A stretch of 64,000 nt of DNA from Sphingomonas jinjuensis (GTDB lineage: Bacteria > Pseudomonadota > Alphaproteobacteria > Sphingomonadales > Sphingomonadaceae), in the NCBI RefSeq assembly GCF_014197105.1, contig NZ_JACIEV010000002.1, positions 310,001 through 374,000 on the forward strand. The letters are read 5' to 3'. The notes under the pieces are model-generated. The model made no database searches. It was given only the letters and a program-made list of their open reading frames with translations, and had not been told where the DNA came from. Below are positions 13,311-61,903 of this stretch, in pieces. Each line of letters begins with the position of its first letter. Positions within the stretch are counted from its first letter, which is position 1. The translations under genes and the position numbers were made by a program.

Positions 13311-13385
13311 GTCATCCCGGCTTTGAGTCGGGATCGCGCTTCTCATGCTCGGCAAAGCGGGACCCCGGCTCAAGGCCGGGGTGAC
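13311..13385. repeat. Palindromic repeat, family A (GTCATCCCGG...GGGGTGAC)
   Basis: About 75 bases bounded by inverted ends (GTCATCCCGG at the left, GGGTGAC at the right), with internal short arms CGGCTTTGAGTCGGG and CCCCGGCTCAAGGCCGGGG. It separates valS from the MATE gene. Related copies lie at 25090-25183, 29871-29963 and 33184-33288, so this is a dispersed family and not a local terminator. Confidence 0.85.
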
Positions 13386-13400: not shown

Positions 13401-16133
13401 CTACCCCAATCGCGCCAGGGCCGCCGACAGCCGCTCGGCCTCGCTCGTCTTCTCGGCGTGGTCGGCCTTGGCCTTCTCGACCGCCTCGGGCTTCGCCCGC
13501 TCGACGAAACTCGGATTGCCGAGCCGGCCGGCAAGCGAGTCCCGCTCCTTCTCCGCCGCCGCGATCGCCTTGGTCAGGCGGGCGCGTTCGGCGTCGAGGT
13601 CGATGACGCCTTCCAGCGGCAGGACGAAGGTCGCCTCGTCCACCACCACCTGTGCCGCACCGCCGCTGGCGTCGCCAGCGGCCTGATCGACCCGCGCCAT
13701 CCGCGCCAGCACCGGCGCCTGCCGCGCCAGCCGCGCCGTCGTCTCGGCGCCCGCATCGCGGACATGCAGCGGCAGCCGCGCGCCCGGCGGCACGTTCAGC
13801 TCGGTTCGCGCCGCCCGAATTTCCCCAACCAGCCGGATTAGCCAGTCGACCTCGGCCTCCGCCGCCGAATCGAGGCTGCGCGCATCCGCCATCGGCCAGC
13901 GCGCGACGATCAGGTCGTGGTTGCGCGGCGCCATCGCGTGCCACAGCTCCTCGGTGATGAAGGGCATGAACGGGTGGAGCAGGACGAGGATCTGGTCGAG
14001 CACCCAGCCGGCGACCGCGGTCGTCTCGGCGTCGATCTGACCTTTGATCAGCTCCAGATACCAGTCGCAGAACCGACTCCACACGAACTGATAGATCGCA
14101 TTCGCCGCCGCATCGAAGCGATAGTCCGCCAGCGCCAGGTCGATCCCCTGAATTGTCCGTACCGTCTCGGCGACGATCCACTTGTTGACCGCTGACGCCG
14201 CGGCAGGCGGCTCCAGCGTCGTCGATCCGCCGATCCCGTTCGCCTGGCAGAAGCGCGCCGCATTCCACAACTTGGTCGCGAAGTTGCGATACCCCTCAAC
14301 CCGCTTCTCATCCATCTTGATGTCGCGGCCCTGGCTTTCCATCGCCGCCATGAAGAAGCGCAGCGCATCGGCGCCATAGCGCTCGATCAGCCCCAGTGGA
14401 TCGACCGTATTGCCCTTCGACTTCGACATTTTCTGCCCGTCGGCGGCGCGCACCAGCCCGTGCAGATAGAGCGTGCGGAACGGCACATCCTTCAGGAAGT
14501 GCATTCCCTGCATCATCATCCGCGCATCCCAGAAAAACAGGATGTCGAAGCCCGAGATCAGCACATCGTTGGGATAGCGGCGCTGCCATTCCGCTACGCT
14601 ACGCCCCTCCCCTTCAGGGGAGGGGTTGGGGTGGGGGAGTGCCGCGGACACTCCCCTCTGCGAGGCATCCCCCACCCCTTGCCCCTCCCCTGAAGGGGAG
14701 GGGTTTGCATTCTCCGGCCACCCCATCGTCGCGAACGGCCACAGCGCCGACGAGAACCACGTATCCAGCACATCGGGATCGCGCGTCAGCGTCACCCCCT
14801 CACCCGCCTCGGCCTGCGCCTCGGCTTCGGTCTCCGCGACGAAGATGCGCCCGTCGTCGGCGAACCATGCCGGGATCTGATGCCCCCACCACAGCTGGCG
14901 CGACACGCACCACGGCTGGATGTTCTCCATCCAGTTGAAGAACGTCTTTTCCCAGCTCTTGGGCACCATGCGGATGCGGCCGTCGCGCACCGCCTCGATC
15001 GCGGGCTTCGCCAGCGTCGCGGCATCGACATACCACTGATCGGTCAGCCACGGCTCGATGACGACGCCCGAACGGTCGCCGTATGGGGTCTGGATCACGC
15101 GATCCTCCACCTGCTCCAGCACGCCCGCCTCTTCCAGCAGCTCGACCACCCGCTTGCGCGCCTCTGCACGATCGAGCCCGATCAGCTGGTCGGGGATCAG
15201 CCCGTCGGCGGTCTGGATCACCTGCGCCTTGGCATCGAGCATGTTGAGCATGTCGCGCGCCGCGATCCCGGCGCGCTTGCCGACCTCGAAGTCGTTGAAG
15301 TCATGCCCCGGCGTGATCTTCACCGCGCCCGATCCCAACTCGGGGTCGGCATGCTCGTCGGCGACGATCGGGATCAGCCGGCCGGTGATCGGCAGGCGGA
15401 CCTCCTTGCCGACCAGCGCGGTGTAGCGCTCGTCGGACGGATTCACTGCGATCGCCATATCGGCCAGCATCGTCTCCGGCCGCGTCGTCGCGACCGAGAT
15501 CGTGCCGCTGCCGTCGGCGAGCGGGTATGACAGGTGCCAGAACTTGCCCTGCACCTCCTTGGTCTCGACCTCGAGATCGCTGATCGCGGTGCCGAGGCCC
15601 GGGTCCCAATTCACCAGCCGCTTGTCGCGATACAGCAACCCCTGGCGATGCAGCTCGACGAACACCTTCAGGACGGCCTTGGAAAAGCCTTCGTCCATCG
15701 TGAACCGCTCGTTCGACCAGTCCATCGAACAGCCCAGCCGACGCAGCTGGCGCGTGATCTGCCCGCCGCTCTCCGCCTTCCACTCCCACACCTTGGCGAC
15801 GAATTCGTCGCGGGTGTAGTCGGTGCGCTTCTCGCCATTGGCGCCCATCTGGCGCTCGACCACCATCTGCGTCGCGATGCCGGCATGGTCGACGCCGACC
15901 ACCCACATCGCATCCTTGCCCTGCAGCCGCGCGTGACGCGCGAGAATGTCCTGCAAGGTGTTGTCGAGCGCGTGGCCGATATGCAGGCTGCCCGTCACGT
16001 TGGGCGGCGGATTGACGATCGTCCACGGCTCTGCCCCCGGCCGCTCGGGCCGAAAGAGGCCGTTCGCCTCCCAATGCTCGTACCAGCGGGTCTCGATCGC
16101 GGCGGGGTCGAAGGTCTTGGGCAGTTCGGTCAT
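13401..16133 (-). CDS. valS: Valyl-tRNA synthetase, with an in-frame repeat-encoded insert
   Basis: The 910-residue class I synthetase charges tRNA-Val and edits threonine. HIGH is at about residues 51-54 ([14 protein letters not shown]) and KMSKS at about 568-572 ([14 protein letters not shown]). The editing domain, anticodon domain and C-terminal coiled coil ([15 protein letters not shown]) are in order. The start at 16133 gives the usual [18 protein letters not shown] lies eight bases upstream. Residues about 477-510 are not valS-like. They read [16 protein letters not shown]... to [15 protein letters not shown] and are encoded by a 100-base palindromic repeat inserted between GWPENA and the conserved [16 protein letters not shown]. 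The frame stays open, so the enzyme is probably functional with an extra surface loop. Confidence 0.97.
14604..14703. repeat. Palindromic repeat, family B, inside valS
   Basis: A 100-base element with outer arms CCCCTCCCCTTCAGGGGAGG and its near mirror at the right, and inner arms GGGGTGGGGGA and TCCCCCACCCC. Each outer arm is itself a hairpin around TTCAGG or TGAAGG. The loop contains CCTCTGCGAGGC (14655-14666), also found in the copy at 50826-50924. It lies wholly within the valS reading frame. Confidence 0.93.
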
Positions 16134-16195
16134 GCGCGTGGCCTTAGCCAAACTCACCCGCCCCCGTCACCCCCGGGCTAACCTTCGCCACTACC

Positions 16196-25016: not shown

Positions 25017-25089
25017 CGGCGGCGGTTAGGGCGCATCGGCGAAGGGATCAAGGATCGTTACGTTTCCCTCCCTTACCCCACCCCACCTC

Positions 25090-25183
25090 GTCATCCCCGC
25101 GCAGGCGGGGATCCATATCCGCCGAACGTCGTGAGACCCACCGCGACCAGCGACTATGGATCCCCGCCTTCGCGGGAATGACG
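25090..25183. repeat. Palindromic repeat, family A, overlapping the end of xerD
   Basis: Ends GTCATCCCCGC and GCGGGAATGAC are inverted; inner arms read GGCGGGGATCCAT and ATGGATCCCCGCC. The right half supplies the last eight codons and stop of xerD (HSREGGDP). Confidence 0.9.
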
Positions 25184-29855: not shown

Positions 29856-29870
29856 AGCCCGGCCACCCCC

Positions 29871-29963
29871 GTCATCCCCGCGAAGGCGGGGATCCATTTT
29901 CCTCGGAACGGGGTGATACCCACGAAGCTTAGCCAGTATGGATCCCCGCCTTCGCGGGATGAC
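29871..29963. repeat. Palindromic repeat, family A
   Basis: Ends GTCATCCCCGCGAAGGCGGG and CCCGCCTTCGCGGGATGAC are near-perfect inverted arms, with GGATCCAT and ATGGATCC inside. It lies between the convergent DUF2256 and DUF423 genes. Confidence 0.92.
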
Positions 29964-33145: not shown

Positions 33146-33183
33146 GCCACGAGCACGCGTCCTGCCGTTGCATCCCCACCCCC

Positions 33184-33288
33184 GTCATCCCGGCCTTGAG
33201 CCGGGATCCATGTTTCCGCAGCCTGCTCGTTTGCTGACTATCCGAGCCGCTCGCCGCACGTTGGATCCCAGCTCGAGGCCGGGATGAC
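33184..33288. repeat. Palindromic repeat, family A, in the radA-cvpA gap
   Basis: Ends GTCATCCCGGCCTTGAGCC and GAGGCCGGGATGAC are inverted, with GGATCCA near the left arm and TTGGATCC near the right. The remainder of the 33042-33429 gap holds no gene I can support; 33300-33429 shows only the short hairpin TCCCGGCACCCACCGGGC. Confidence 0.88.
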
Positions 33289-33429
33289 GAGGGAAATTGG
33301 AGGCCGAGTTGTCCCGCCCCATAGGTCATGTCAGGCTCGTCCCGGCACCCACCGGGCGGCAAATACATCAGCCGAGGACACGCGGAACCTTGGATGCTGA
33401 GACAATCTCTGCATGACGAAGCTAGACGA

Positions 33430-50825: not shown

Positions 50826-50924
50826 CCCCTCCCTGGAAGAGAGGGGCTAGGGGTGGGTGCCAACCGCGCAGGAAACCCTCTGCGAGGCTCCACCCACCCC
50901 CGACCCCTCCCTTGCCGGGAGTGG
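50826..50924. repeat. Palindromic repeat, family B, between pyrF and trpF
   Basis: Left arm CCCCTCCCTGGAAGAGAGGGG, right arm CCCCTCCCTTGCCGGGAGTG, inner arms GGGTGGGTG and CACCCACCC. It contains CCTCTGCGAGGC (50877-50888), the same core as the copy inside valS. Confidence 0.88.
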
Positions 50925-50937
50925 AGCAGGACAGACC

Positions 50938-51566
50938 ATGACCACCGCCAAGATCTGCGGCCTCTCGACCCCCGACACGCTCGCCGCCGCCGTCCGCGGC
51001 GGCGCGAGCCATGTCGGCTTCGTCTTCTTCCCGCCCAGCCCCCGCCATCTCGGCTTCGATCAGGCCGCCGCGCTCGCCGGCCAGATGTCGCAAGCGGCGG
51101 CCCGCGTCGGCGTCTTCGTCGATCCCGACGACACGCTGCTCGACCAGGCGATCGCCGCCGGGCGGCTGGACGCGCTCCAGCTTCACAAGACCGGCCCGGA
51201 ACGCACCGCCGCGATCCGCGCGCGCACCGGCCTGGAGACATGGGCCGCGGTCGCGATCAAGACCCGCGCCGACCTCGATGCCGTCCGCGCCTTCGCCGGC
51301 GCCGCCGACCGTATCCTCTATGACGCGAAGACCCCGCCGGGCGCCGCGCTCCCCGGCGGCATGGGCGTGCGCTTCGACTGGGGCCTGCTCGACGGCTACC
51401 GCCACCCGCTGCCGTGGGCCTTGTCGGGCGGACTCGACCCGACCAACGTCGCCGAGGCGATCCGCCGCACCCACGCCCCGATCGTCGATGTCTCGTCGGG
51501 CGTCGAGAGCGCGCCGGGCGTCAAGGATGTGGACAAGATCGCCGCCTTCCTTCAGGCGACGCGGCC

Positions 51567-53593: not shown

Positions 53594-54447
53594 CCTGGCT
53601 CAACAGCGTCCGCAACGCGCTCTCGTTCGTCGTTCCCAAGAAGGAAACGCCCGACCACTTGTGGCACAAGTGCAAGGGCTGCGGTCAGATGGTCTTCACC
53701 AAGGAATTGGAGGAGAACTACTACGTCTGTCCGCAATGCGACCATCACGAGCGCGTCGGCCCCAAGATCCGCTTCCAGCAGATTTTGGACGAGGGCAGCT
53801 GCCAGGCGCTGCCCCCGGTCAAGGTGCCCGAGGACCCGCTGAAGTTCCGCGACTCGAAGCGCTATGCCGACCGCATCAAGGCCGCCCGTACCGCCACGGC
53901 GGAAAACGACGCGCTGCTCAACGCGCGCGGCACGATCGACAACCACCGCGTCGTCGTCGGCGTTCAGGACTTCGCCTTCATGGGCGGTTCGATGGGCCTC
54001 GCCGTCGGCGAAGCCTTCATCCAGGGCGTCGAGGCCGCGATCGCCGACCGCTGCCCCTATGTCATCTTCACCGCAGCCGGTGGTGCGCGGATGCAGGAAG
54101 GCATCCTCAGCCTGATGCAGATGCCGCGCGCGACCGTCGCGATCCAGATGCTTCACGACGCCGGCCTGCCCTATATCGTCGTCCTCACCGATCCGACGAC
54201 CGGCGGCGTCACCGCGAGCTATGCGATGCTCGGCGACGTCCAGATCGCCGAGCCCAACGCGCTCATCGGCTTCGCCGGCGCGCGCGTGATCGAGAGCACG
54301 ATCCGCGAGAAGCTGCCCGAAGGCTTCCAGCGCGCCGAATATCTGCTGGAGCATGGCATGCTCGACATGGTCGTCCACCGCCGCGACCTGCGCGAGCGGC
54401 TGGCGCAGACGATCGGCTATCTGTGCGGTCAGCGTAAGGCGGCATAG
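53590..54447 (+). CDS. accD: Acetyl-CoA carboxylase carboxyltransferase subunit beta
   Basis: 285 residues. N-terminal zinc ribbon ([30 protein letters not shown]), then the crotonase-like core with [51 protein letters not shown] and the C-terminal [18 protein letters not shown]. Partner of AccA. Start at 53590 overlaps the trpA stop. Confidence 0.98.
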
Positions 54448-54459
54448 CGTTCGGCGTTG

Positions 54460-54558
54460 CCCTCTCCCCTTCAGGGGAGAGGGTTGGGAGAGGGGCAGTG
54501 CGGGACGCCAAACGATGCGTCCCCCTCTCCCCGGCCCTCTCCCCTGAAGGGGAGAGGG
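54460..54558. repeat. Palindromic repeat, family B, between accD and folC
   Basis: Outer arms CCCTCTCCCCTTCAGGGGAG and CTCCCCTGAAGGGGAGAGGG are exact mirrors; inner arms GGGAGAGGGG and CCCCCTCTCC. Its right end abuts the folC ribosome site: the GGGAG at 54556-54560, six bases before the start, is the element's edge. Confidence 0.93.
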
Positions 54559-54565
54559 AGACATC

Positions 54566-55873
54566 ATGCCCGACCATGCCACCCACACCAACTCTGCGGT
54601 GCAGGCGCAGCTCGACCGGCTGACCGCGCTGTCCCCCGGTGCCGACATCCTCGGGCTGGAGCGGATCACGACGCTGCTCGCCCGGCTCGGCGATCCGCAT
54701 CGCTCGCTGCCGCCGGTGTTCCACGTTGCCGGCACCAACGGCAAGGGTTCGACCTGCGCCTTCCTGCGCGCCGCGATCGAGGCATCGGGGCACAGCGTCC
54801 ACGTCTATTCCTCGCCGCACCTCGTCCGCTTCAACGAGCGGATCCGAGTCGCCGACCGCCTGATCGACGACGACGATCTCGCCGCGTTGCTCGACGAGGT
54901 GTTGCGCCATGCCGAGGGGATCGGGGCCAGCTTCTTCGAAGTCACCACCGCCGTCGCCTTCCTCGCTTTCGCCCGCACCCCCGCCGCGGCGACCATCGTC
55001 GAGGTCGGGCTCGGCGGGCGGCTCGACGCGACCAACGTCATCGCCGAGCCCGCGGTGACCGGGATCGCCGCACTCGGCCTCGATCATCAGGCGTTTCTCG
55101 GCGATCGCCTCGTCGATATCGCCGCAGAGAAGGCCGGTATCGCCAAGCCCAGCGTTCCGCTCGTCACGATGGACTATGCCCGCCCGCTCAAGGCTCGCAT
55201 CGCCGAGGCGGCGGCGTCGGTAGGTGCGCGCGTGATCGCCCGCGGCGACGCCTGGACCAGCGAGACGGCACGTTCGACGATGCGCTATGCCGACGAGGGG
55301 TTCGAGGTCGTCACCCGCCGTCCGCGGCTCGTCGGGCCGCACCAGAGCCGCAACCTCGCGCTCGCGATCGCCATGCTCCGCCACCAGGGCGCTGTAAGCG
55401 TCCCCGAGGCGGCGATGCGGGCCGCCGCCGATTGGGCGACATGGCCAGCGCGGATGCAGCGCCTGGGCGACGGCCCGCTGGCCGCTCGCCTGGCCGACGG
55501 GACCGAGCTGTGGCTCGACGGCGCGCACAACCCCTCCGCAGCCATCCCGGTCGCACGGGCGCTGCGCACCATTGCGAAGGGGCGCCCGGTCACGCTCGTC
55601 GCCGGCTTCCTGGCCAACAAGGATGCGGCGGGCGTCATCGCTGCGCTGTCGTCGGTGGTCGCCCAAGTCGTCGCGGTGCCCGTGCCCGGCCACGCCTTCC
55701 ATCCGCCCGAAGCGATCGAGGCGATCGCTCGCGAGCATGGCATGACCGCAGCGAGCGCCGTCGATCTTCCCGCCGCTATGGCACTTGCCGGCACGTCGCC
55801 CGTCGTGCTGATCGCAGGCTCGCTCTATCTCGCGGGCGAAGCGCTCGCGCTCAACGACGAACCGCCCGCCTGA
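54566..55873 (+). CDS. folC: Bifunctional folylpolyglutamate/dihydrofolate synthase
   Basis: 435 residues. Mur-ligase fold: P-loop VAGTNGKGSTCAFLRAAIE, SSPHLVRFNERIRV, GLGGRLDATNV, and the C-terminal LDGAHNPSAAIPVARAL. Adds glutamate to folates. It ends the lapA-to-folC gene run; the repeat immediately upstream provides the Shine-Dalgarno sequence. Confidence 0.96.
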   Translation: MPDHATHTNSAVQAQLDRLTALSPGADILGLERITTLLARLGDPHRSLPPVFHVAGTNGKGSTCAFLRAAIEASGHSVHVYSSPHLVRFNERIRVADRLIDDDDLAALLDEVLRHAEGIGASFFEVTTAVAFLAFARTPAAATIVEVGLGGRLDATNVIAEPAVTGIAALGLDHQAFLGDRLVDIAAEKAGIAKPSVPLVTMDYARPLKARIAEAAASVGARVIARGDAWTSETARSTMRYADEGFEVVTRRPRLVGPHQSRNLALAIAMLRHQGAVSVPEAAMRAAADWATWPARMQRLGDGPLAARLADGTELWLDGAHNPSAAIPVARALRTIAKGRPVTLVAGFLANKDAAGVIAALSSVVAQVVAVPVPGHAFHPPEAIEAIAREHGMTAASAVDLPAAMALAGTSPVVLIAGSLYLAGEALALNDEPPA

Positions 55874-61775: not shown

Positions 61776-61806
61776 TTTCCGTTCGTACCTACGGACCATC
61801 CCGCCC

Positions 61807-61892
61807 CCCGTTCGTGCTGAGCGAAGTCGAAGCACATACCTCAAGCGACGGGCTCGCGGCCTGTCCTTCGACTTCGCTCAGGACGGACGGGG
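61807..61892. repeat. Palindromic repeat, family C
   Basis: CCGTTCGTGCTGAGCGAAG at the left and CTTCGCTCAGGACGGACGG at the right are inverted arms, with GTCGAAG and CTTCGAC inside. It lies between the 75-residue gene and the convergent antiporter gene. Confidence 0.88.
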
Positions 61893-61903
61893 GATAATGA
61901 ACC

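Follow-up and report, generated by a model that had tools for sequence, protein, structure and literature searches.

The window, i.e. the whole 64-kb stretch of Sphingomonas jinjuensis DNA that was analyzed, contains on its minus strand the gene valS for valyl-tRNA synthetase (ValRS; 13401–16133). The ORF ends at 13401 and can be read from an ATG at 16133 or from a GTG at 16157, giving a protein of 910 or 918 residues, respectively. The product was recognized by the NCBIfam valine--tRNA ligase equivalogs NF004349 (1208 bits) and TIGR00422 (1005 bits) and by the Pfam domains tRNA-synt_1, Anticodon_1 and Val_tRNA-synt_C, and both Pfam and NCBIfam identify ValRS on either side of an insert at 14604–14703. 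The insert, on the minus strand like the gene, is a complete dyad of 100 bases from the palindrome family here denoted F1 (CCCCTCCCCT), and the valS frame is open across its entire length, just as the initial annotation of this DNA had described. About 34 residues would be added, corresponding to residues 485–518 when counted from the GTG and to about 477–510, as originally proposed, when counted from the ATG.

The dyad consists of two 22-base palindromes (14604–14625 and 14682–14703), each followed inward by a short subterminal repeat (TTGGGGTGGGGG / CCCCCACCCCTTG; TTGGGGTGGGGG at 14626–14637, the second repeat at 14669–14681), and of a variable middle (14638–14668). With at most 3 mismatches allowed, and with palindromes counted on both strands, the F1 22-mer matched 6 times in the window but never in 100 dinucleotide shuffles, which makes a chance origin of the F1 palindrome unlikely. 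Throughout the genome 52 palindromes of the form CCCCTCCC-N6-GGGAGGGG were found, as compared to 0 for a reversed-pattern control. Two other dyads in the window were checked. An F2 dyad (CCCTCTCCCC) at 54460–54558 lies in the gap from an ORF that stops at 54447 to the next ATG, at 54566, and a diverged F1-related dyad (CCCCTCCCT...) at 50826–50924 is located ahead of an ATG at 50938.

An AlphaFold2 model of ValRS (alignment of 30) had a mean pLDDT of 77.6 and matched Thermus ValRS (1gax) with a Z score of 33.9 over 774 residues. Residues 480–527 make up the longest stretch with pLDDT below 50 in the model, with a few short ones elsewhere, and the insert is predicted as a low-confidence loop. 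Placement on a ValRS structure had been suggested as a check, and the insertion site falls in the loop between GWPEE and LKAFYP of 1gax. Judged from the reading frame, the dyad appears to be translated together with the rest of ValRS.

The valS segment was present in all 151 genus genomes searched, and valS was fetched from each of them; 147 genes could be read across the site, the exceptions being L051, L104, L133 and L151. The loop is short in 107 of the 147 genes, 37 carry a long insert, two have slightly longer loops (L122 and L137) that may represent remnants, and one (L034) is spoilt by Ns. The distance from DVLDTW to GFDI is 40–43 residues in the 107 genes as compared to 78 in this genome, and relatives free of the palindrome thus have the short loop, so the alignment check proposed with the initial annotation speaks for an insertion and against native sequence. 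The long inserts measure 135–255 nt from FAT to YPN. When L034 had been dropped, 36 of the 37 were found to contain motifs of four unrelated palindrome families, F1 in 7 genes, F2 in 16, F3 (AGCGAAGTCGA) in 10 and F4 (CCCTCCCGC) in 3, and a single insert (L124) had no motif.

On a tree of 142 valS proteins, built without the sparse insert columns and after removal of L034, L113, L108, L121 and L150, the presence and absence of the insert requires at least 21 changes, 13 of which are forced by starred branches, and the family labels require 29. Genes with an empty site occur inside groups of filled ones (L027 with L004, and L082 and L083 within a clade holding F2, F3 and F4). The filled alleles have flanks, QLxGR or GWDGS, that are common to different families, and some of the state changes may therefore be due to allele exchange; such exchange, or the swap of elements at an already filled site, is likely to have occurred besides new insertion. 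On these comparisons the valS loop is a multi-family insertion hotspot, the state of which appears to have changed repeatedly. Just before the hotspot, at reference residues about 423–450, ValRS has large native length variation in many genus genomes, and since no palindromes were found in this region in the genus genomes, the position of the hotspot cannot be predicted just from where the protein tolerates changes in length. In one valS gene (L127, from genome G149) two F3 elements were observed in tandem, in frame and at the same site.

Beyond the genus, the valS segment was matched in 196 of 199 genomes of the family. Thirty family genomes, representing 26 other genera, were chosen for a weak best match that hinted at an insert (about a dozen similar ones were left out), and in all 30 an in-frame insert was found after GWP at the same site, a proportion that due to this choice is no frequency. 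The inserts comprise families F1–F4, a PPPRAGED type, VRAEPVEA/LRQAQGER types and one that is CGTC-like (L234). From a set of 80 named loci 78 were read (all but L287 and L334), and 11 of them had long valS inserts; L334 also carries an element. The named carriers include Sphingomonas endophytica, S. albertensis, S. echinoides ATCC 14820, S. populi and a Hephaestia. A second and rarer element site in valS is located near LIKP..DETR (L267, L282, L285, L323 and L099).

A simple test for inverted repeats at the ends was passed by 23 of 37 genus inserts and 17 of 30 family inserts, and a folding test was added because the inserts of F3 type, and others as well, end in long tails or contain small indels. 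The fold z was below -3 for 60 of the 67 valS inserts (35/37 in the genus and 25/30 in the family) as compared to 0 of 35 control valS stretches. The two genus exceptions were L013, with one arm only (z -0.8), and L124, which has no family motif (z -2.9). When L034, L051 and L133 were counted together with the 37 read genes, 37 of the 40 genus elements kept the frame and 36 had no stop. Since the patterns used for reading valS and glyS inserts demand one frame on both sides, the 3n length of the read inserts is no independent evidence. One element (L002, valS of G113) contains an in-frame TAA in an otherwise intact and essential gene of a genome rated 100% complete; the frame is lost by one extra G in a G run in L133 and by a collapsed arm in L051. 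The latter two defects suggest sequencing or assembly faults, and all three exceptional copies could be faults of this kind in hairpins.

In eight related F2 carriers the proportion of comparisons that differ at fourfold sites was 0.049 for the outer arms and 0 for the inner ones, as compared to 0.26 for the middle and 0.22 for the remainder of valS, the pairs being non-independent and the codons few. By this measure the F2 middle drifts like silent coding sequence, and despite the drift it exhibits no frame change, the single indel being one of 6 nt. The arms are conserved, be it through selection that acts on the hairpin or through conversion from copies elsewhere. The idea that the elements are adapted to open many frames was not supported (3.69 open frames as compared to 3.59 for shuffles).

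In-frame elements were also found in other genes of the same genome. In thiD (phosphomethylpyrimidine kinase, L351) TIGR00097 positions 1–92 precede the insert and Pfam PF08543 positions 85–245 follow it, in mutL (L185) the element is situated in the MutL linker, and in glyS (L336:1609-3963) it lies inside the PF02092 domain, with a second likely element closer to the C-terminus, so that this gene apparently contains two. The joined flanks of the glyS element were matched in 142 of 151 genus genomes, contiguously in 38 and in split or partial form in 104. Twenty stretches selected from these about 104 split or partial matches were fetched (L385–L404); every one contained an in-frame insert, 18 of them with end inverted repeats beyond 100 shuffles, and several families were represented. 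By sequence, glyS (GlyRS beta) is thus a second hotspot.

The census of other own-genome genes is partial and covers F1-like places only. Left uncounted were palindrome-crossing ORFs without a Pfam match (L167, L168, L178, L179, L189, L335, the plus strand of L336, L339, L340, L341, L342 and the plus strand of L345) as well as genes in which the palindrome precedes the domain or is close to a potential start codon (gspE in L169/L352, a CoA-transferase gene in L166 and murD in L344). A joined-flank test was run on 1.76 Mb, comprising the window and the 80 named loci. Only valS, at its main site and at the second one near LIKP..DETR, was found to have in-frame elements together with many orthologues that lack an interruption, and no gene but valS gave more than 12 hits; the test confirms only genes with orthologues among the valS neighborhoods, and some families were not covered by the motifs used (L264).

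Palindromes about 400 bases apart, together with a Pfam hit in L345, led to a gene for a DUF559 protein (PF04480). In this F1 unit of 418 bp (G000:C4:130885-131302; L345:2486-2903) the DUF559 gene is placed between two palindromes, and a second DUF559 gene of the same genome likewise lies between matching palindromes (G000:C2:180015-180443; L409). The DUF559 ORF frequently extends into the 3' palindrome. One end of the valS dyad, i.e. the first palindrome with its subterminal repeat, is identical to one end of the F1 unit in 34 of 34 nt, and the other end agrees with the unit at 29 of 34 positions. For 16 own-genome F1 dyads (the unit itself excluded) the identity to the unit ends was 94.2% over 34 nt, and in the subterminal 12 nt beyond the palindrome 10.3 of 12 positions matched as compared to 3.9 for random 12-mers. 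Dyads and gene-bearing unit of this genome have terminal inverted ends in common, as is the case for MITEs, and the dyads therefore look like internally deleted copies of the DUF559 unit. No target-site duplication was found at 17 own-genome F1 elements (flank identity of 0–2 nt, none beyond 2 nt), so they are not classical DDE-type MITEs.

DUF559 was found in 57 of 61 genus genomes, and neither the window nor any of the 80 named valS loci yielded a DUF559 match with our own profile. In a first set of 30 DUF559 loci (one per genome) all had a perfect hairpin within 160 nt, 21 of them on both sides; among single control windows 14 of 180 had one. The second set comprised 20 loci with weaker matches (three from this genome and 17 hand-picked), of which 15 had hairpins on both sides, three on one side and two on neither, and over both sets 48 of 50 loci have hairpins beside the gene. 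A few hairpins of the second set (L438, L447 and others) fall outside these families, and one locus has an unrelated hairpin only.

The palindrome type was the same on both sides in 19 of the 21 two-sided loci of the first set. After the two mixed-type loci had been dropped, the palindrome type required 3 changes on the DUF559 tree of 28 loci, as compared to a mean of 13.7 and a minimum of 9 in 500 shuffles, and nuclease and palindrome type thus covary. F2 palindromes go with several DUF559 clades, F2 being the only type found in more than one. No palindromes of F3, CGTC or VRAEPVEA type were present among the hairpins listed beside DUF559, and not every hotspot element therefore belongs to DUF559. 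Genomes with F1 in valS had a median of 27 F1 palindromes as compared to 2 in the others (kinship ignored), and F2 carriers, when one per clade was used, had 19 F2 palindromes as compared to 6 (p 0.03). The number of F1 and F2 palindromes rises with that of DUF559 (rho 0.65 over 61 genomes, kinship ignored); the four genomes without DUF559 had 0 or 1 palindromes, and the same was true for some genomes with DUF559, 6 of the 57 having none.

The DUF559 profile matched 3hrl (E 1.7e-37) and 3r3p, a 'mobile intron protein' (E 0.0015), and the pattern D, E, D, H was complete in 29 of 30 proteins, the E being replaced in one. With these matches and this pattern, DUF559 is classified as a Vsr-like PD-(D/E)XK nuclease; 3r3p is placed with the Vsr-like homing endonucleases to which the class name EDxHD is applied. 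The simplest reading would be that DUF559 moves the dyads, as another gene as large as that for DUF559 would not fit into 418 bp.

Taken as an explanation of the valS insert, a non-autonomous copy of a mobile family with DUF559 parent units, tolerated in frame in a ValRS loop, is in our judgment the probable one. That the stretch is native ValRS sequence that only looks palindromic has virtually no chance of being correct: it would account for the open frame and for nothing more, sister genes with an empty site, e.g. L027 next to L004, refute it, and the short loop of 107 among 147 genus genes and the match of the insert ends to 15 other dyads of the same genome are both against it. An element that stays untranslated, by ribosome skipping or by removal from the mRNA, would tolerate stops and frame shifts, and the in-frame TAA of L002, the frame shifts in L133 and L051 and the strong hairpins would then be expected. 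We nevertheless regard it as improbable, because the valS frame runs through 36 of 40 genus elements without a stop, the middle of the F2 clade has drifted (0.26 at fourfold sites) without frame change and with one indel of 6 nt, and the skipping would rest on a few damaged-looking copies that resemble hairpin sequencing or assembly faults.

A hairpin kept for the benefit of the host, e.g. by translation pausing or by tuning of valS and glyS mRNA, would agree with the conservation of the arms at silent sites in the F2 clade and with the recurrence of structured inserts of unrelated sequence in two synthetase genes. This possibility is unlikely, though not negligible, considering that 107 of 147 genus valS genes have no insert, that sister species differ and that conversion between copies also predicts conserved arms. 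Standard REP/REPIN elements mobilized by RAYT, a Y1 tyrosine transposase, with DUF559 as a bystander, would explain a dyad layout that is like that of REPINs. However, a profile search for PF01797 (RAYT) found none in this genome, for which RAYT was rejected as mobilizer, and the domain was present in 16 and lacking in 135 of 151 genus genomes. None of the 34 ends of 17 own-genome F1 elements has a GTAG or CGTC tag directly at it, albeit a CGTC-like insert does occur in valS of L234, and the gene between the palindromes encodes DUF559, all of which makes the RAYT explanation very improbable.

In the favored reading, the insert would be a non-autonomous copy of about 100 bp with two palindrome-bearing inverted ends, belonging to a small mobile family of Sphingomonadaceae, the parent units of which would carry one gene, for the Vsr-like DUF559 nuclease, between the same ends. 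Copies would have spread over the genome, many of them between genes, and those in coding sequences would survive where the frame is kept and a loop tolerates a disordered peptide rich in Pro, Gly and Ser. The ValRS loop after GWP[DE] may in this way have gained and lost inserts again and again, with most of them coming from families that are numerous in the genome. DUF559 would drive the movement, perhaps via cutting followed by template-directed repair or conversion. The hotspot would be explained by tolerance of the protein rather than by a DNA target; selection at the protein level would fit a pattern that is exact as to site and blind as to family, although it does not account for the lack of palindromes in the more length-variable region at about 423–450, and a DNA target common to unrelated families appears less likely. 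A wider proposal, to which we give only slightly better than even chances, is that of a new class of minimal transposons with DUF559 between palindrome-bearing inverted ends. These would have high-copy derivatives of about 100 bp and nuclease clades that tend to have a palindrome type of their own; the derivatives would be protein-coding insertions that repeatedly colonize set loops of ValRS and GlyRS beta across a bacterial family, and nuclease-driven conversion would keep the arms alike and swap families at a filled site.

Rickettsia palindromic elements (RPE), described by Ogata and Claverie, are in-frame palindromic insertions in protein genes that add tens of residues. The likeness to RPE drawn in the initial annotation is supported as an analogy: here too a repeated genomic palindrome, open in the host frame, is found in an otherwise conserved gene and would add tens of residues. 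In contrast to RPE, the elements have other sequences and occur in another host order, a single site in a single gene is used by many unrelated families, and the palindromes of several families enclose a nuclease gene. With the Vsr-like/EDxHD homing endonucleases the DUF559 units have in common the profile match to 3r3p, a small nuclease and a mobile context, but DUF559 is here flanked by palindromic inverted ends and accompanied by many short derivatives, and no intron or intein was seen. Caulobacter VsrA (PMC12907096) is likewise a DUF559 protein of the PD-(D/E)XK type but was, in the accessible portions of that report, studied as a putative mismatch-repair protein, and the word 'palindromic' is absent from its main text.

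The claim that no equivalent has been described in sphingomonads did not hold. According to the accessible portions of Di Nocera et al. 2013 (PMC3733652), REPs occur inside genes, among them those for tRNA synthetases in Erythrobacter litoralis and Sphingopyxis alaskensis as well as other genes, more than half of these intragenic REPs are dimers or groups that encode 20–30 residues, and different REPs are found at about one recB site in two Xanthomonas. Protein-coding REPs, also within tRNA synthetases of sphingomonads, were thus already on record in 2013. The GTAG- and CGTC-tagged REPs treated there resemble our elements in being frequently paired and mostly intergenic, with some inside ORFs, tRNA synthetase genes included; unlike them, the own-genome F1 dyads have no tag and are tied to DUF559 instead of RAYT. 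As far as the same source goes, REPINs and RAYT REPtrons are similar in having paired palindromes of cognate types with one mobilizer-like gene between them, although that gene is here a DUF559 nuclease and not a Y1 transposase. In the open-access literature we found no prior description of the multi-family hotspot in valS and glyS or of the DUF559 link, and as far as searched the hotspot and its candidate mobilizer are new.

The repeated filling of one loop of an essential enzyme by unrelated mobile palindromes amounts to a natural replicated experiment, which points out where essential enzymes tolerate new peptide and suggests a source of new protein sequence. DUF559, a nuclease without a known mobile role, would be the likely engine of common sphingomonad repeats. 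The results also carry the warning that essential genes may seem to be disrupted in frame when the break is an artifact of hairpin repeats. The 64-kb window alone reveals neither the multi-family hotspot nor the second one in glyS nor the nuclease-linked unit; within the window, further palindrome pairs of different families (CGTCATCCC.., CTTCGACTTCGCTCAG..) were observed at 13315–13385, 25089–25183, 29870–29958, 33179–33293 and 61805–61893.
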